Position numbers and translations under genes: made by a program. The notes beneath the pieces were generated by a model. It did no database searches. It worked only from the letters and a program-made list of their open reading frames with translations, and was not told where the DNA came from. A stretch of 62,662 nt of DNA from IMG/VR virus record IMGVR_UViG_3300032304_002568, positions 1 through 62,662 of that record; one strand, 5' to 3'. Numbering within the stretch: the stretch's first letter is position 1; each line of letters begins with the position of its first letter. Shown here one piece after another: positions 1,692 through 21,287 of the stretch. The stretch is from a virus.

Positions 1692-1947
1692 ATACTGGAT
1701 TATCGACCTCGAAGGATGCGGCATGGCTGAAGACACAAAAACTGCGATTGGGCCTTTCAAATCTGTGGCTGATGCAGAAAAATGGTTAAAAACCAGCGCG
1801 GCAGAATCGTTTGAGTCTTGGAACGAACACGAAAATCTTGGGCCGCAACTGGATTGGGCGGCTCCGGTTTTGATCGTTGAGGAAAAGAAAAAGCTCCAGC
1901 AAGTGCCTGTCGTGAGCTTTGAAATAAAATTGGAGAAAGTGAAGTAA
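1681..1947 (+). CDS. Hypothetical protein, 88 residues
   Basis: Starts at an ATG that overlaps the end of the HNH gene by 11 nt, and its TAA overlaps the ATG of the RNA ligase gene by one base, so translation is probably coupled. The sequence (KYWIIDLEGCGMAED near the start, then a DAEKW helix) is a small alpha/beta protein with no family I recognise. A longer open frame extends upstream through the HNH gene but is a shadow. Confidence 0.65.
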   Translation: MKNKYWIIDLEGCGMAEDTKTAIGPFKSVADAEKWLKTSAAESFESWNEHENLGPQLDWAAPVLIVEEKKKLQQVPVVSFEIKLEKVK

Positions 1948-2612
1948 TGGAATTTCAAGAGTTTCCGAAAATGGCGCGGTTGTCGCGGGAGGTGATCGTG
2001 ACCGAGAAGATCGACGGCACGAATGCCCAGGTGTATATCGTGGGGAATCCCGAGGGGTTCTACACGGCGAAGCATCCCGATCCCTTGGTGATCGCGGAGG
2101 GGAGTTGTGGTGGCGAGCCAGCGGTGATCTTTGCCGGATCGCGCTCGCGGTGGATTACGCCGCAGGATGACAACTTTGGCTTTGCGGCGTGGGTGAGGGA
2201 TCATGCCCAAGAGCTTTTTGGCCTCGGCTTTGGGCGGCACTTTGGCGAGTGGTGGGGCGCAGGCATTCAGCGCAAATACGGAATGAAAGATCGGCGCTGG
2301 AGTCTTTTCAATGTGTCTCGCTGGTGTCTTCACGGGCAGGAACCGCAGCGTGTGCCGAGCGCGGATCCCCGCATAGAGAAATACCAAGAGCCTCTGCCCG
2401 AGTGCTGTGGCCTTGTGCCGGTGCTACATAGGGGGAAATTCAGCACGCTCCAATGCGATCTTGTGCTGGATGAGCTACGCATGGGTGGCAGTAAGGCCGC
2501 TCCGGGGTTTATGAAGCCAGAGGGCATCGTGGTCTTCCATGTCGCGGGAAATGTGGGGTTCAAGAAAACGATTGATAAAGACGAGGAGCCGAAGGGGATG
2601 GGTAAAGTATGA
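1947..2612 (+). CDS. RNA ligase family nucleotidyltransferase
   Basis: A 221-residue protein with the ordered motifs of RNA/DNA ligase nucleotidyltransferases. Motif I is KIDGTN (Lys21, the residue expected to be adenylated), a motif III-like segment is EWWGAGIQRKYG, motif IV is PEGIVVF, and motif V is FKKTI near the C-terminus. It would seal or repair RNA; phage ligases of this group are best known for repairing tRNA cut by host defences. It is short and lacks a large C-terminal domain. It sits in a run of overlapping genes (1-nt overlap upstream, 4-nt downstream). The family call is strong; the substrate is unknown. Confidence 0.85.
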   Translation: MEFQEFPKMARLSREVIVTEKIDGTNAQVYIVGNPEGFYTAKHPDPLVIAEGSCGGEPAVIFAGSRSRWITPQDDNFGFAAWVRDHAQELFGLGFGRHFGEWWGAGIQRKYGMKDRRWSLFNVSRWCLHGQEPQRVPSADPRIEKYQEPLPECCGLVPVLHRGKFSTLQCDLVLDELRMGGSKAAPGFMKPEGIVVFHVAGNVGFKKTIDKDEEPKGMGKV

Positions 2613-4401: not shown

Positions 4402-6117
4402 ATGAACTTTCTGGATCGAGCAGTTTCTTTTTTTGACCCCGAGGCGGGGGTGAATCGGGCGCAGGCGCGGGAGCGGTTGAAGGCATTTGGGTATGATTCC
4501 GCGCAGCCTGGAACGAATCGCGGCGGCAGTGGCGGGAGGCAGAAGAACTCCTCCTCCGAGACATGGCGGATGCAGCGGGATCGTCTGGTGCTCTTGTGGG
4601 ACGCGCGCGATGTGGTGCGGAATTTTTCGATCCTGCGCGGCATCATTTCACGCATCGTTCAATACACCGCCGATACGGTTCAGTATGTCTCGCAGACGGG
4701 GGATGAGGAGATCGATTCGATGTATCAGGATTATTTCCATGCGTGGTGCGAGCGTGCGGATATTACTGGCCGTCACCGGCTGGGCGCTCTGGTTTCCATG
4801 GCGATGTGGAGCCTGCTGGTGGATGGCGATCACGGCTGGCACTTGGTAGAGATCGATGCGGGCGGCAAGCGGCAACTCCGCATCCAATCCATCGAGGCCG
4901 ACCGCATCGGGGATCCGAATAATCCGATGAGTCCTGGCAACAACAACGATATCGGCGGCATCATCGTGGACGAGATGGGTCGCCCTGTCTCCTATCGCAT
5001 CTTCAAGCGCGAGCGGCGCACGGCGTTGTATTCCTTTGAGCGGGAGATTCCTGCCGACCAGTTCATTCACATCTTCGACCCGATGCGGGTGGATCAATAT
5101 CGAGGCGTCACGGCGCTCTCGACCGTCATCGCCCCCGCGCGGGATTTGTATGAGGTGTATCACTTTGAGAAGCTGGCGGCGAAGTGGCAGGTCGGTCATG
5201 CGGGGTTCGTGAAGGTCTCAGACCCGACACGGCGCGACGGCGGCATCTCGGCGTGGAATGGCACGAAGGATAACCGCCCCGACTCTCCCGGCACGATGGC
5301 GATGGAGGCAGGAAAAATCCAACGACTCTCGCAGGGCGAGGACATCCAGTTCGCCCCTGGCACGAACCGCCCGAGCGGAGCGTTCATGGCGCTGGTGCAG
5401 ACGATGGTGCGCGAGATCGCCAGTGGGCTGAATATGCCCTACGGATTCCTCTACGACATGACGGCGTTCTCGGGTCACACGGGTCGCATCGAAATCGCCC
5501 AAGCCATGCGCTCGATCCGTCGCTACCAGAAACTTCTTAGCGAGAAAGCCCTCGACCCGCTGCGGGATCGCGTGATCGGCCTTGGCATTTCTCTTGGGGA
5601 TTTGCCAGCGCATCCGAAATGGCGTAGTGGCCGCTGGGGCTTTGGCCGCTCGCTCACAGGCGACTACGGCCACGACACTACGGCGAATCTCCAGCTTCTC
5701 TCTGCCGGACTCGTCACAGCGACCGACCTCATCGCCGAGACAGGACAATCTTTCGAGGAAGTGGTGCGCCGTAGCGCGAGCGAAGTGGCTTACCTGCAAC
5801 GAGTCGCCACAGAGACAGGTGTGCCGATCGAACTCATCAATCAACGCCTGCCTGGGCCGACTCAAGCCCTCGCCGCCATGGCCGAGCCGCCACAGCCGCC
5901 GCCACCTGGACTCGTGCCGCAGGGCTTGGATGTGAAGCCGCTCTTGGAGTTGCTGAAAAATGTGGGCGAAGGGATATTGGATCGCGAAAGCGCGATTATC
6001 AATCTGATGAACCTGTATGGCGTGGAGCGGAATGCGGCTGAGAAGATGATTCCTGATGGGCCGAAGGAGAAGAGTTTAACCACGGAGAACACGGAGAGCA
6101 CGGAGGGGGAGAAATGA
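4402..6117 (+). CDS. Phage portal protein, lambda type
   Basis: A 571-residue protein that would form the dodecameric ring at the head vertex through which DNA passes. Hallmarks of the lambda gpB family are the R..RDVVRNFSILRG start, a conserved HIF..MRVDQYRGVTAL segment near residues 224-240, then AKWQVGHAGFV, GKIQRLSQGEDIQFAPG and REIASGLNMPYGFLY. The start lies 17 nt after GTTGAC. The C-terminus is odd: the last dozen or so codons are a copy of the 9-mer repeat read in a different frame from other embedded copies, giving a TENTEST-like tail. Overlaps the next gene by 4 nt. Confidence 0.93.
   Translation: MNFLDRAVSFFDPEAGVNRAQARERLKAFGYDSAQPGTNRGGSGGRQKNSSSETWRMQRDRLVLLWDARDVVRNFSILRGIISRIVQYTADTVQYVSQTGDEEIDSMYQDYFHAWCERADITGRHRLGALVSMAMWSLLVDGDHGWHLVEIDAGGKRQLRIQSIEADRIGDPNNPMSPGNNNDIGGIIVDEMGRPVSYRIFKRERRTALYSFEREIPADQFIHIFDPMRVDQYRGVTALSTVIAPARDLYEVYHFEKLAAKWQVGHAGFVKVSDPTRRDGGISAWNGTKDNRPDSPGTMAMEAGKIQRLSQGEDIQFAPGTNRPSGAFMALVQTMVREIASGLNMPYGFLYDMTAFSGHTGRIEIAQAMRSIRRYQKLLSEKALDPLRDRVIGLGISLGDLPAHPKWRSGRWGFGRSLTGDYGHDTTANLQLLSAGLVTATDLIAETGQSFEEVVRRSASEVAYLQRVATETGVPIELINQRLPGPTQALAAMAEPPQPPPPGLVPQGLDVKPLLELLKNVGEGILDRESAIINLMNLYGVERNAAEKMIPDGPKEKSLTTENTESTEGEK
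6073..6112 (+). repeat. 9-mer repeat coding the portal C-terminus
   Basis: A copy of the AACCACGGAG family with 9-base units. Here it is read in the frame giving Thr/Glu/Ser residues, whereas copies at 10586, 13768 and 21978 are read as FNHGGHGEHGG-like peptides. Confidence 0.85.
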
Positions 6118-8351
6118 AGTTTCCTTTGAAGAAGTCTTTATTGGTTTACCATGGCACGAATACGAAGAGCGGCCTTGGTCAAAAAAGCGGATTCTATCCG
6201 GGGACTTATACATCAAAGAGCAAGGAAGTCGCCCAAGGGTTTGGAGAAAACGTAGAAACATTACAGGTTGATTCCTCCAAGATTTTCCCGCTTGCGGATG
6301 CTGATGATCTCAAGCGGAAAGCCTCGAAGGCGGGATTTGGTTTTCATGGGGCAAATGGACGAAGCGAAGCGAATTACCTTAAGTCGCATGGATATATCGG
6401 TATGGCGCGTGGGAATGAAGTGATTCTGTTCCCTTTCAAGAAGCAAAGTGTTCGCTCCTACATAGCAAAGAACCTCTCCGCGAAGTTGCGCTTGCGGGAG
6501 TTTGTTCGTGTGATGGGTGGGGCGGATATACCGGCGAGTATGTCGCAGATTCGCTCGGTGTGGCGCACATTCAAGAATGCTGCGCCTGGCAAGATCGTTC
6601 GTAGCACCACGCAGGGTTCGTCTTTTGGGCCTCGGGGCATGGTGGTTCAGAAGGCGGCGTCGGGAGCCAAGATCGATAGGGAGGCTTTGTTGGCGGGAGC
6701 GACGAATACGACGAACTACCCGATCACCAGTGCCTTGCATGAAGGGGGCCATGCGTTGTTCAACAAGGCTATGACAGGCTCCGCGAACCAGCAATTCCTG
6801 CCGCGACTCGGCAGGGGGCCGACACCGGAGAAGCACCCCTTGCGCGGCGTTCAGATCATGGCCAACGAGATCGGGGCGAATAACTCCGCTGTGCAAGTCT
6901 TGCGCGGGGCGGGAGTGAAGCAAGATGCCGTATCCGATTTTATGAAATTTCGCCAACGGGGTATCGATAGCCACATGAGGTCTGCCCGAGATCATGTCGC
7001 CGCCGCTCCGGTCGGCCTCACTCCCCAAAGGCACCAGGAGATCAAGGGAGCCTTTAACCGCTGGATCACGGATTGGAAAAGATCGCCAGCCAGCCCTAAT
7101 GCCAAGCTCAGCGTCGATGCTCCAGAGTTGGTGAAAAAGGATTTCGAGGCCGTGAAGCTGCGGTTGCGGGAATTGGCGCGTGGAGACTATGCGATTCCTG
7201 CGCTGGGGAAGATGCTGCGGGATCGTTCCATGTTGGAGGAGTTTCTGACAGGCAATCGTGGGCCGAAGATGGGGGATTTTAGGTCTTTTCGATGGGGGCC
7301 GCCGCTTGACCTCGGAGGCAAGGCACCGATCAGGGGTAAGACGGCGATCGTTCCGCTTCACGGGACTTGGGTTGGAACGGAGCCCGTTGTTGCCGTGATT
7401 AAAAACCAAGGCATGTTGAGGCAAGAATCCCGCGAGCAACTCGCCAAAATGCTTCGCAAAGGCCGCGCTGGCGGAGATGTGTATGAGGGCATAGACCGCA
7501 GGTTTTTCTCCGCGAAGCTGCGTTTGCGGGAACTGGCGCGGGGGGATTATGCGATTCCTGCGCTGGGGAAAATGCTGCGGGATCGTTCCATGTTGGAGGA
7601 GTTTCTGACAGGCAATCGTGGGCTGGGGGATTTGAGGGCTGGAAAATTAAGAGGATGGCATAATAATATAAGGCTTATTTCCCAGAAGCCGATTTTTGCA
7701 AGCAATTCTCGCATTGGTAATTTTACAGAGTCGGTAAACGATGCTGCTCGGAACTCAACTTTACGGGCAAGAGAAGGAGATGATTTTCTGCAAAAAGAGA
7801 CTCAAGCGAGAACTGCTGCACGGAATCAGTTGGCTAAAATTATACGCAAGGGGCGTTCTGGCGGTGATGTGTATGATGAGATAGATCGTGGAAAATTCTC
7901 TGGCCGTCTTGTTGGCGATCACGGTCTGTCTGCGAAGCTCCGCTTAATCGAGATGGGCTACACGAAGCCGGGGTTGCGGGATCGGATCAAGGCGCGGATT
8001 ATGGCGAGTGGTAAGGGTGGGCGGCCTGGGCAGTGGAGTGCGCGGAAGGCGCAACTCGTCGCGCAGGAGTATCGTGCCGAGGGCGGTGGCTATAAGGGCG
8101 GGAAGACGGAATCCCAAAAATCCCTTCGCAAGTGGACTCGTGAGAAATGGGGCACGCGATCTGGCAAGCCCAGCACGCAGGGGTCGGAAGCCACGGGCGA
8201 GCGGTATCTGCCTGAGTCTGCGAATAAATCCCTCAGCCCACAAGAGTATGGAGCCACGACCCGCGCCAAGCGCGAGGGCACTCGGCGGGGCGAGCAGTTT
8301 GTGCGACAGCCCGAGCGCATCGCCAAGAAAACAGCCAAGGAGCGTCAATGA
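6114..8351 (+). CDS. Modular polyvalent-type protein: ADP-ribosyltransferase-like, HExxH peptidase-like, duplicated module, DUF5872-like tail
   Basis: A 745-residue mosaic. Residues 1-117 resemble an H-Y-E type ADP-ribosyltransferase: YHGT at 12-15, GTYTSKSKEVAQGFG, and EVILFPFKKQSV near 108-115. After the tag SAKLRLREF, residues 140-340 hold a metallopeptidase-like domain with HEGGH at 209-213 and a downstream NEIGAN segment. A module is then present twice, starting KLRLRELARGDYAIPALGK; its first part is nearly identical at DNA level, 360 nt apart. The last 110 residues (KIRA-type basic region with GQWSARKAQLVAQEY and GGGYKGGKT) recall DUF5872, a family seen in phages and large viruses. Likely packaged or injected rather than structural; this is inference. 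Overlaps both neighbours. Confidence 0.65.
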   Translation: MKFPLKKSLLVYHGTNTKSGLGQKSGFYPGTYTSKSKEVAQGFGENVETLQVDSSKIFPLADADDLKRKASKAGFGFHGANGRSEANYLKSHGYIGMARGNEVILFPFKKQSVRSYIAKNLSAKLRLREFVRVMGGADIPASMSQIRSVWRTFKNAAPGKIVRSTTQGSSFGPRGMVVQKAASGAKIDREALLAGATNTTNYPITSALHEGGHALFNKAMTGSANQQFLPRLGRGPTPEKHPLRGVQIMANEIGANNSAVQVLRGAGVKQDAVSDFMKFRQRGIDSHMRSARDHVAAAPVGLTPQRHQEIKGAFNRWITDWKRSPASPNAKLSVDAPELVKKDFEAVKLRLRELARGDYAIPALGKMLRDRSMLEEFLTGNRGPKMGDFRSFRWGPPLDLGGKAPIRGKTAIVPLHGTWVGTEPVVAVIKNQGMLRQESREQLAKMLRKGRAGGDVYEGIDRRFFSAKLRLRELARGDYAIPALGKMLRDRSMLEEFLTGNRGLGDLRAGKLRGWHNNIRLISQKPIFASNSRIGNFTESVNDAARNSTLRAREGDDFLQKETQARTAARNQLAKIIRKGRSGGDVYDEIDRGKFSGRLVGDHGLSAKLRLIEMGYTKPGLRDRIKARIMASGKGGRPGQWSARKAQLVAQEYRAEGGGYKGGKTESQKSLRKWTREKWGTRSGKPSTQGSEATGERYLPESANKSLSPQEYGATTRAKREGTRRGEQFVRQPERIAKKTAKERQ
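7151..7622 (+). repeat. Two 112-nt direct copies, 360 nt apart, inside the modular gene
   Basis: Bases 7151-7262 and 7511-7622 are almost identical and code for the tag plus GDYAIPALGKMLRDRSMLEE and following residues. The offset is exactly 120 codons. A diverged third copy lies at about 10621-10731 in the next large gene. The sequences after each copy differ but share a QLAK-(M/I)-(L/I)-RKGR end. Confidence 0.9.
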
Positions 8352-16101: not shown

Positions 16102-17103
16102 ATGAAAAAAACAACCCAATGGGGAGCGGTGGCACAGGCCGCGCAGGCGGCGGATCATAAGTCGAAACTCGACCAGGCTCTGGCCGACCTCGATGCGGAG
16201 CGCAAGGCGCACGCGGAGACGGTTCGTGCGCTGGAGAAGGCTCGCACGGGCACTCGCCCAATCGTGAAGGCGAAGCCTACTTCGCCGAAGCCGGGAGCGG
16301 GTGACATTGTGGAGGTGATTTTTTCGGATGTGCACGGGAACAAGCATGACCCAGCGGCGTTCTCGGCTTTTCTGGGCGATCTCAAGACACTGCAGCCGGA
16401 TCGCATCGTGATCGGTGGCGACTTTATTGATTGCGGCGGGTTCCTGGCGGAACATCACACGCTGGGCTATGTGGCCGAGACGGAGGATAGCTACGAGGAC
16501 GATGTGCGTGTGGCAAATGACTTGCTCGATGCCGTGATGCACCACTCGGGCTGCGGGGACATCCACTACATCGAGGGCAACCATGAATGGAGGGTCGAGA
16601 GATGGGCGCTCACGCAGCGGCTCGCGCACCACAAGGACATTGACCTACTTCGCCGCACCTTCTGCGCCGAGCATGTGCTCAAGCTCGCGGAGCGGGGCGT
16701 CAAATACTACCACCAGGGCAAGACGCATGGAGGCTGCGATGTGCCGGGGTGGATCAAGATGGATAAGATGTTTTTCGTGCATAAAATCTCCAACTCCCGC
16801 GATGCGGCGGATGTGGCGATGAGCAAGGCGGGGGGCAATATCTGCTACTTCGACACGCACCGCGCTTCATTCAAGCCCAAGAACATTCCTGGGCTGGGGC
16901 TGATCTCCGCATGGAACCCCGGCTGCCTCTGCAAGCGGCAGCCACTCTATGCGAATACGCGGCCCACCGAGTGGACGCATGGCTACTTGATCCGCTTCAT
17001 TTCCCGCAAGACGGGCGCGTTCCAGATGATCAATGTCTCGATCAACGACGGCGTGAGCTACGCGGGGATGCTGCTCAAGGGCAGCGGACAGAAAAAATCT
17101 TAA
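16102..17103 (+). CDS. Calcineurin-like metallophosphoesterase
   Basis: A 333-residue protein. Residues 1-65 are helical and basic; the catalytic domain has the metal-binding series FSDVHGN (Asp76, His78), GGDFID (Asp107), EGNHEWR (Asn160, His161), and later His in FFVHKIS and FDTHRAS. It would hydrolyse phosphodiesters or phosphomonoesters; the substrate is unknown. Phage members have been linked to nucleic-acid metabolism and to head genes by position. It lies between the tagged proteins and the protease. Confidence 0.85.
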   Translation: MKKTTQWGAVAQAAQAADHKSKLDQALADLDAERKAHAETVRALEKARTGTRPIVKAKPTSPKPGAGDIVEVIFSDVHGNKHDPAAFSAFLGDLKTLQPDRIVIGGDFIDCGGFLAEHHTLGYVAETEDSYEDDVRVANDLLDAVMHHSGCGDIHYIEGNHEWRVERWALTQRLAHHKDIDLLRRTFCAEHVLKLAERGVKYYHQGKTHGGCDVPGWIKMDKMFFVHKISNSRDAADVAMSKAGGNICYFDTHRASFKPKNIPGLGLISAWNPGCLCKRQPLYANTRPTEWTHGYLIRFISRKTGAFQMINVSINDGVSYAGMLLKGSGQKKS

Positions 17104-19608: not shown

Positions 19609-20565
19609 ATGGCATACAATACTTCAGACTCCGTTCCACGGCAGGACATCTCCACACTTTTGATGGAAGGCGTCCACCAGGAGAAACACTACGTCGCCTC
19701 CAGCCTCCTGCCCGTCTACGGCAGCCAGCGCGAGGTCGGACGCTACCCGAAATTCCGTCTCGGCAAGGGCGAGCTCTTGAAAAAAGAGAGCCAGAAGCGC
19801 AATGCGACCGGCACCTACAACGAATCCGAAGAGCAATTCGAGTGGGACAGCTATCAGACTCAAGAATACGGCCACGAGAAGCGTGTGGACGATGTTGTGA
19901 AGAAGCAAATGGGCGACTTCTTCGACGCGGAGATGGTCACTGCGAAGTTCTGCATGAATAAACTCATGCTCGACTACGAAGTGGAAGCCGCCGCAGCGAT
20001 CATGAATCCCGCGACCTTCACAGCGACTGCCGCAGGCACAGCCTACACCGAAGCGAACCTCGCGACGATGGACTTCCCCGCCGACATCAACGCCACGATC
20101 GAAGCCCTCACCCTCAATGGTGAAGAGCCAAACACGATGGTGTTGAGCCTCTCGGTCTACAACCGCTTGAAGCGCTCCAAGCTGCTCCAGACCTACCTCT
20201 ACGGCCACCTGAACACCACTCAGGGCGGATCAAACATCACCCCGAATCTCATCGCCGAGGCCTTTGGCATCCCGAATATCGTGGTCGCCAAGAAGTCCTA
20301 CGACAACGCGATCAAGGGCAAGATGAATGTCGTTCCTGTGTGGGGCAACGAATACATCTGGATCGGCGAAGTGCAAGGCGGTGACTTCATGACCGGCGGC
20401 TGTGGCCGCACGATCATCTGGGACGCCGACAGCGAAGGCGGCCTCTTCACCACCGATCAATACCGCGACGAGCCTCGTCGTGGCGACAAGATCCGCGTGC
20501 GCAGCAATCGCGTGATCAAAATCGTGAACCCGAACTCGGGCCGACTCATCACCACCGGACTCTAA
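19609..20565 (+). CDS. Major capsid protein
   Basis: A 318-residue protein likely of the HK97 fold. It follows protease/scaffold and decoration genes. The N-terminal arm is helical (ISTLLMEGVHQEKHYVASSL), and the TMVLSLSVYNRLKRSK segment and the C-terminal RRGDKIRVRSNRVIKIVNP strand are typical of capsid P and A domains. No L-x-E tag and no long N-terminal delta domain are seen, consistent with a separate scaffold. A strong terminator follows. The exact family was not identified by search. Confidence 0.85.
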   Translation: MAYNTSDSVPRQDISTLLMEGVHQEKHYVASSLLPVYGSQREVGRYPKFRLGKGELLKKESQKRNATGTYNESEEQFEWDSYQTQEYGHEKRVDDVVKKQMGDFFDAEMVTAKFCMNKLMLDYEVEAAAAIMNPATFTATAAGTAYTEANLATMDFPADINATIEALTLNGEEPNTMVLSLSVYNRLKRSKLLQTYLYGHLNTTQGGSNITPNLIAEAFGIPNIVVAKKSYDNAIKGKMNVVPVWGNEYIWIGEVQGGDFMTGGCGRTIIWDADSEGGLFTTDQYRDEPRRGDKIRVRSNRVIKIVNPNSGRLITTGL

Positions 20566-20576
20566 GGAAAGGTATG

Positions 20577-20626
20577 AAGGAGGAAGGATGAAGTAGGAAA
20601 CTGCTGAATCCTTCCTCCTTTTTTTT
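20577..20626 (+). terminator. Strong Rho-independent terminator after the capsid gene
   Basis: A perfect 13-bp stem AAGGAGGAAGGAT (20577-20589) / ATCCTTCCTCCTT (20608-20620) with an 18-nt loop is followed by a run of T. The left arm is part of a GAAGGAT heptamer repeat, so the terminator seems to be built from a repeat and an inverted unit. Confidence 0.88.
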
Positions 20627-20639
20627 GAAAGGAAATTTT

Positions 20640-21152
20640 ATGAAGAATATTAACCACAGAGGACACAGAGAACACGGAGTGAAGGATCTCAAGCCTGCGC
20701 TTCGCGAGCTGGCGGCTCGCAGCGAGGCGATTACGGAATTCGCCATGGTGCGTGACGCCAATGGGCAGTTCGTCGAGGTCGAGGACGAAGGCGGCATGGG
20801 CGTGGGCACGGCGGTCAAAGCCGGTGCAGGTGCTGCTGCTCTCGGTGGCGCTGGCTATGGAGCTTATCGTGGCCATAAGGCTGTGATGGGCGTCGGTGCA
20901 GACGAGTATGCAAAAAAATCTGCCATGGCAGCGACTGCGGCGGATCGTGTTGGCTCTACTACTCCGATTGCTCAGCGTGCGGCAAACTACAAAATCGCCA
21001 AGGCAGGTGCTGCGGGTAACTTCGATCGCATGGGCTTCATGGATAAGGTCAAGACTGGTTACGGCATGGCTGGGCAGTCCGCTATGAACTCTGCGGCTGG
21101 TCGTTCCGGGTTGCTTGGGCGGCTCGGTCGATTTGCGCTAAAGCTCCGCTAA
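20640..21152 (+). CDS. Tagged protein with repeat-encoded N-terminus and glycine-rich segment
   Basis: The ATG at 20640 follows GAAAGGAAA and gives 170 residues. The first codons are a 9-mer repeat (INHRGHREHG), then the tag LKPALRELAARSEAITEFAMV, then RDANGQFVEVEDEGG, and a Gly/Ala hydrophobic segment near residues 55-80. The protein starting at 21288 has the same order. Both resemble small versions of the large modular proteins. Function unknown; placed after the capsid terminator. Confidence 0.6.
   Translation: MKNINHRGHREHGVKDLKPALRELAARSEAITEFAMVRDANGQFVEVEDEGGMGVGTAVKAGAGAAALGGAGYGAYRGHKAVMGVGADEYAKKSAMAATAADRVGSTTPIAQRAANYKIAKAGAAGNFDRMGFMDKVKTGYGMAGQSAMNSAAGRSGLLGRLGRFALKLR
20649..20682 (+). 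repeat. 9-mer repeat coding an N-terminus
   Basis: Copy with CACAGAGGA units directly after the start codon region of the gene at 20640. Confidence 0.85.
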
Positions 21153-21161
21153 ATAACTCAC

Positions 21162-21232
21162 TGCAGGATGGAGAAACGGTATCTCACGAGGCCCATAACC
21201 TTGCGTTCCGGGTTCGATTCCCGGTCCTGCTA
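21162..21232 (+). tRNA. tRNA-Met (CAT) with initiator-like features
   Basis: A 71-nt cloverleaf. Acceptor 21162-21168 / 21225-21231 has six pairs and a T-T mismatch at the first position. D stem is GAGA/TCTC, anticodon stem CGAGG/CCTTG with loop CCCATAA (anticodon CAT at 21194-21196), variable loop of 4, T stem CCGGG/CCCGG with loop TTCGATT, discriminator A. CCA is not encoded. The missing first pair and an A11-T24 pair are marks of bacterial initiator tRNAs. C at position 33 instead of T is odd, as is A29-T41 instead of G-C. Confidence 0.75.
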
Positions 21233-21287
21233 ATTTCCACACCACCACAACCGCTGGCAGGCCGGTATAAAGTCTGCTTCTTTTTTT

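Follow-up and report, generated by a model that had tools for sequence, protein, structure and literature searches.

The initiator tRNA governs every round of protein synthesis. Among phage records, E. coli tRNAfMet matches 294 of 50,697, including 125 mycobacteriophages and 38 Caulobacter phages; initiator marks were read in a subset of the 294, and most of the tRNAs so read carry A11-U24. The tRNA of Caulobacter phage CcrSC is annotated as tRNA-fMet, and the initiator pattern has at least 120 matches in IMG/VR. These matches contradict an earlier note on the DNA studied here, which held initiator-like tRNAs to be unusual on phages. The literature surveyed gives little attention to whether phage tRNAs are initiators, and the phiCbK paper does not mention it. 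This kind of tRNA is therefore known in records and little studied.

The window analysed here is a virus record of 62,662 bases, taken at its full length. Its sole tRNA gene is a tRNA-Met(CAU) at 21162-21232 on the + strand (ARAGORN). This tRNA shares A11-U24, GG/CC at 30-31 and C32 C33 with the tRNA-Met of Pseudomonas phage D3 (NC_002484) and of Detrevirus FBPa47. In both phages, direct reading gives C1xU72 and a GGAGA...TCTC D stem like that of the window. The D3 tRNA-Met (L339, 201-276) differs in having G29-C41, an encoded CCA and a position near orf84/orf85. It combines the initiator marks C1xU72, A11-U24 and GGG/CCC with C33 and is annotated only as tRNA-Met. The CcrSC tRNA-fMet and the corresponding tRNAs of Mycobacterium phage Myrna, Gordonia phage GodonK and Janthinobacterium phage Donnerlittchen also share A11-U24 and GG/CC at 30-31. 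CcrSC, Myrna and GodonK have U33, whereas Donnerlittchen does not, and position 1:72 varies (U-A in CcrSC, AxC in Myrna). Unlike the window tRNA, those of Myrna and GodonK lie inside tRNA clusters.

A second set of comparable systems consists of phage tRNAs for which evasion of tRNA-cutting defences is proposed or shown. VapC toxins cut tRNAfMet in the anticodon stem-loop between A38 and C39 (PMC4105405; PMC5175333). According to PMC10264068, tRNA-fMet is generally not encoded by phages where it is a VapC target, and phage tRNAs whose anticodon loops are altered are proposed to evade nucleases of this kind. Phage tRNAs also rescue phages from tRNA-cutting defences (PMC11555353). Proposed or demonstrated cases are those of mycobacteriophage C1, T5-like tRNA-Tyr against retron-Eco7 and T5 tRNA-Lys against PARIS. 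The window tRNA resembles this set in being phage-borne, and the mycobacteriophage members likewise have anticodon-loop changes relative to the host. The set consists of elongators, unlike the initiator of the window.

The tRNA gene and its cloverleaf

The tRNA is genuine by both ARAGORN and Rfam, where it matches the tRNA family RF00005 with 51.6 bits over model positions 1-71 (cmscan; cut-off 29). The features of the window that bear on it are as follows.

1947..2612, + strand: RNA ligase gene (PF09414, E 4.8e-12, Pfam; phrog_548, E 1.2e-22)
19609..20565, + strand: major capsid protein gene (phrog_1005 major head protein, E 1.1e-34)
20576..20627, + strand: strong terminator-like hairpin directly 3' of the capsid gene (-31.5 kcal/mol, z -7.1), then a T-run
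20625..21152 (nearest ATG 20640), + strand: small ORF between the capsid gene and the tRNA, without a PHROG or Pfam match
21162..21232, + strand: initiator-type tRNA(CAU) (ARAGORN, Rfam, initiator versus elongator model, covariation)
21256..21287, + strand: intrinsic terminator directly after the tRNA (7-bp stem, 9-nt loop, then TTCTTTTTTT)

Read directly, the acceptor stem has U1xU72, G2-C71, C3-G70 and A4-U69, followed by A73, and the D stem has A11-U24. The anticodon stem is C27-G43, G28.U42, A29-U41, G30-C40 and G31-C39, and the loop is C32 C33 C34 A35 U36 A37 A38. The gene does not encode CCA (CTGCTA, then ATTTCCA). Every feature that the earlier note had described base by base is present: T-T at 1-72, A11-T24, G-C at 30-40 and 31-39, A29-T41, C33 and the lack of CCA. 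The note had named a covariance score in the pseudogene range as evidence against its proposal; the 51.6 bits lie well over the cut-off of 29 and outside that range. The minimum-energy fold of the tRNA alone is not the cloverleaf (z -1.8), an uninformative result.

The four arms covary across nine distinct phage versions, which are the window and eight others. In these versions, 94.7% of pair cells are standard and 13 of 21 pairs have substitutions in both partners, a level that no shuffle out of 500 reaches. For example, G28.U42 is swapped for A28-U42 in L010 and for G28-C42 in L102, and C49-G65 is swapped for U49-A65 in L010. The tertiary pair 15:48 covaries as well (A-U in six versions, G-C in three). 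Position 1:72 is never Watson-Crick: it is open in eight of the nine versions and G.U in the ninth, whose 2:71 is open. In L009, U1 is replaced by C1 and the 1:72 mismatch is kept. A11-U24 is invariant in all nine. At the level of sequence, conserved arms with an open 1:72 and a fixed A11-U24 are the pattern that selection for a working initiator would be expected to leave.

Host group and initiator identity

The window capsid protein has one relative in the cellular genome collection, on a contig of a Verrucomicrobiaceae MAG (L017). Of 384 genomes searched, a single one, of this class (G318), has the window-type tRNA, on a contig with phage genes. From these two finds the host is inferred to be Verrucomicrobiia-like, at the phylum or class level only.

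The initiator pattern is matched in 119 of 141 Verrucomicrobiia genomes. Nearly all of these have the stem-loop TCAGG-CTCATAA-CCTGA, which gives A29-U41. Host initiators are CxA, CxC, CxU (MAG G012) or U-A at 1:72, and CCA is not encoded in at least 7 of 30 extracted host initiator genes. In the Verrucomicrobiia CAU elongators, 11:24 is C-G and 1:72 is paired, and G31-C39 is missing. A second initiator in the Verrucomicrobiaceae MAG (G012:C141:33807-33880) has three G-C pairs and the loop TTCATAA, unlike the class consensus, and may be a contaminant or an element.

The window tRNA resembles the Verrucomicrobiia host initiator (L073; C1xU72 form of MAG G012) in its open 1:72, G2-C71, C3-G70, A11-U24, A29-U41, G30-C40, G31-C39, CAU anticodon and A73. 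It differs from this initiator in U1xU72, in a D loop and a variable loop that are both shorter, in having A15-U48 where the host has G15-C48, and in C27-G43, G28.U42, A4-U69, C33 and the lack of CCA. Three of the features had been listed in the earlier note as departures from host-type initiators. C33 is a true departure, whereas A29-U41 and the missing CCA both occur in Verrucomicrobiia initiators. A29-U41 is the state of the host class and was dropped as a phage-specific mark. The missing CCA was likewise dropped as a defect, since CCA is present in sister phages and is variable among host initiators. C33 is the real oddity of the window tRNA relative to the host class.

Covariance models were built from 17 host initiators and 15 host CAU elongators. 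The window tRNA scores 56.0 bits with the initiator model and 42.2 bits with the elongator model, a gap of 13.8 bits between two models whose scores are only roughly comparable. The initiator model is preferred by all ten phage versions scored (the window and nine others). The gap is smaller in L017 (74.5 for the initiator, 67.0 for the elongator). The L017 tRNA-CAU (7965-8041), an exception to the conserved pattern, has an initiator-like open C1xC72 but an elongator-like C11-G24 and an A31xC39 mismatch, and is a possible hybrid.

Of the determinants given for the formylase Fmt (PMC7949028; PMC9976931), the window tRNA has A73, G2-C71, C3-G70 and an unpaired 1:72, with A4-U69 in place of the additional pair G4-C69. 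For MetRS, the CAU anticodon and A73 are present. U33 is also listed as a base that MetRS recognises in the E. coli initiator (PMC9976931); the window tRNA has C33 at this position, so charging could be weaker. Of the three G-C pairs in the initiator rule (29-41, 30-40 and 31-39), 30-40 and 31-39 are G-C and 29-41 is A-U. Since the host class itself has A29-U41, the rule from E. coli cannot be carried over as it stands. The model scores, the conservation of 1:72 and A11-U24 and the host comparison agree in supporting the initiator-type identity that the earlier note had proposed, and the window tRNA is probably an initiator by descent.

Relatives and linkage to the capsid gene

Relatives were collected by a capsid protein search. 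The tRNA is carried by L006-L012, L014, L112, L113, L115, L116, L117 and L017, and is the sole tRNA of its record in nearly all of them, as in the window. The capsid-found relatives L013, L015 and L016 have no tRNA, and L119 is a fragment that ends within the capsid gene. Searching phage records directly with the DNA of this region of the window gave no match.

In every relative that has the tRNA, it lies less than 3 kb from the capsid gene. It starts 56-58 nt past the capsid stop in L010-L012 and L014, 13 nt past it in L113 and 65-73 nt past it in L115 and L116. It lies upstream of the capsid gene in L112 and L117 (about 2.3 kb) and in L017 (2 kb). The small ORF that precedes the tRNA is inserted in the window clade; L010-L012 and L014 lack it, and their tRNA begins less than 60 nt after the capsid stop. 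The IMG/VR contig G009 stops exactly at A73 of its own tRNA (G009:C1:1-71, the end of L014); close relatives continue with CCA.

In the MAG contig G318:C79, the same kind of tRNA precedes an unrelated capsid gene (phrog_3437) by about 170 nt. It is placed between a scaffold/protease-like gene and this capsid gene, next to a head-tail adaptor from a different type of phage. The tRNA is thus present in unrelated phages yet stays beside capsid genes. This 56.8 kb contig (L330, L331, L126) apparently contains two different phage packaging and capsid sets and an integrase, and may represent tandem phages or a chimera. Its metallophosphoesterase belongs to the same PHROG as that of the window at 16102-17103.

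The terminator after the tRNA consists of GGCAGAC..GTCTGCC followed by a T-run, and the same element lies 3' of the tRNA in L006-L012. A consensus terminator scanner missed this hairpin because its loop exceeds 8 nt; by fold energy alone, the hairpin shows no excess over shuffles. In the window, the strong terminator between the capsid gene and the tRNA means that the tRNA may depend on read-through or on its own promoter. A promoter scan of the window found none near the tRNA better than chance.

Eleven ACCACAGAGRNCACRGAG-type repeats occur in the window, at 6079, 10591, 11320, 13772, 20653, 21295, 21982, 22600 and 23608 on the + strand and at 1128 and 47936 on the - strand. Some copies lie in ORFs and read NHRGHREHGG. 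The copies at 20653 and 21295 are at the starts of the ORFs flanking the tRNA.

Distribution of C33 and of the RNA ligase

C33 is present in 11 of the 15 family records that have the tRNA. The tRNA of L116 is identical to the host initiator L073 except for one base, U33 to C33. L112 and L117 keep a host-like loop. L113 keeps U33 and has C38 and C30-G40, and L017 has A31xC39. The L113 tRNA (5968-6041) is a phage initiator in which C30-G40, the M1 change that loosens start-codon discrimination in E. coli, occurs together with C38. Outside the family, the C33 initiator pattern occurs in 53 IMG/VR contigs, many of them large and clearly different. Direct reading also shows C33 in the tRNAs of Pseudomonas phage D3, FBPa47 and Janthinobacterium phage Donnerlittchen.

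No C33 initiators are found in 132 Verrucomicrobiia genomes. In the phylum, 4 of 241 genomes have C33 initiators (L349-L352, in genomes G606, G645, G548 and G635), all with U1xU72 like the window, so the loop change is not specific to phages. An early impression of C33 as a phage-only adaptation was given up on this result. L350 and L351 lie among ordinary chromosomal genes, including SmpB and a methylase of the SpoU type (both identified by eye), and their C33 is a natural but rare form of the host initiator loop. In the class of one C33-bearing genome, 43 of 45 matched genomes have U33. The viral frequency (5 C33 among the 120 matches listed) is not significantly above that of the phylum (p 0.32, with a host denominator of about 190 estimated from a 45/57 match rate).

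Eight relatives in the clade of the window have the RNA ligase gene (G001-G004, G006, G007, G009 and G401), and it is absent from G008, G010, G011 and G396-G400. The contig of G005 stops short of the expected position. A role in tRNA repair is proposed for the RNA ligases of jumbo phages (PMC7824862). The window ligase would possibly fit such a role; no partnership with the tRNA is claimed. Among initiator-bearing IMG/VR contigs, an RNA ligase is found in 2 of 44 with C33 and 9 of 50 with U33, and a general partnership of the ligase with C33 tRNAs was therefore rejected.

Role of the tRNA

The reading preferred here, with a probability of about 0.6, is a functional phage-borne tRNAfMet that derives from a Verrucomicrobiota-type host initiator, is kept under selection and supplies initiators at peak capsid translation. 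The tRNA would be transcribed with or beside the capsid gene and ended by its own terminator. Host RNase P and 3' processing would release the tRNA from the transcript, and a host enzyme would add CCA where the gene lacks it. Host MetRS would charge the tRNA, host Fmt would formylate it and it would be used in the P site, enlarging the initiator pool while capsid translation peaks. Supply of initiator tRNA in late protein synthesis is the simplest role and the most likely one. The following points count against it. The loss of the MetRS determinant U33 could weaken charging. A terminator separates the capsid gene from the tRNA, and no nearby promoter rises above chance. The relatives L013, L015 and L016 manage without the tRNA. 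Compensation for codon usage was rejected as a role because the sole tRNA reads AUG and is of the initiator type.

An elongator, either tRNA-Met or tRNA-Ile2 after lysidine modification of C34, would share the CAU anticodon, and the initiator model is ahead by only 13.8 bits for the window copy. The host CAU elongators, however, all have C11-G24 and a paired 1:72 and lack G31-C39, whereas in the window family 1:72 stays open and A11-U24 is retained, and C33 is ill suited to elongation. With A11-U24, the open 1:72 and the model scores all opposed to it, an elongator is highly improbable and was rejected. It is scarcely credible that the gene is a decayed tRNA or the relic of an integration site. 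The lack of CCA in the window clade and the contig that ends at A73 would fit such a relic; the high score, the compensating changes in all arms, the conserved terminator and the site inside the structural gene block do not. The earlier note had also suggested that the tRNA redirects initiation, for example to starts that lack a Shine-Dalgarno motif or are not AUG. Many starts without the motif, as that note had supposed, are plausible: in 48 mechanically chosen + strand genes whose start calls are uncertain, an SD-like 4-mer or longer stands in the right place at 13 first starts (27%), against 16% of random positions. The count rises to 30 of the 48 genes once downstream starts are allowed, and nothing was given to link such starts to the tRNA. 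The M1 change seen in L113 also favours redirection, as it loosens E. coli start-codon discrimination; it lowers initiation 20-fold in that bacterium (PMC11497404). In the window, however, the anticodon is unchanged and the pairs 29-41, 30-40 and 31-39 are those of the host, so the grip of the P site should be normal. Redirected initiation has no positive evidence in the window and is very unlikely.

A further reading extends initiator supply without excluding it: the phage copy would serve as a replacement initiator able to withstand host defence. The C33 loop would be spared by a putative VapC-type nuclease, translation of the phage would continue and the phage RNA ligase might add repair. 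The VapC cut at 38/39, the phage tRNAs proposed to escape such nucleases and those that rescue phages from tRNA-cutting defences argue for this reading. It is also favoured by the anticodon loop, which differs from the U33 loop of the host class, by the single-base difference between L116 and L073, and by the altered loops or stems of other relatives (C33, or C38 with C30-G40, or A31xC39). C33 is found in 11 of 15 family records and in none of the 132 Verrucomicrobiia genomes, and the phage genome also contains an RNA ligase gene. On the other side, C33 occurs in cellular initiators of the phylum, two of them beside ordinary genes such as SmpB, and may therefore be inherited. The viral frequency does not exceed that of the phylum significantly, the RNA ligase is not commoner with C33 than with U33, and the loop of L112 and L117 is host-like. 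The controls do not favour nuclease evasion by C33 over inheritance, and a replacement initiator of this kind is a tentative proposal. A fuller version, in which base 33 of the family's lone capsid-linked initiator would be changed so that VapC-type toxins cannot stop translation, and in which the same C33 would have arisen repeatedly in unrelated phages including D3, is doubtful.

Arguments from codon usage cannot account for a phage that carries this tRNA alone. Nuclease evasion by C33 would be notable, if true. The cultivated Pseudomonas phage D3 has an initiator-type tRNA with C33, which makes the question testable at the bench. A conserved, capsid-linked initiator is a clean case for the supply or defence-evasion roles of phage tRNAs.
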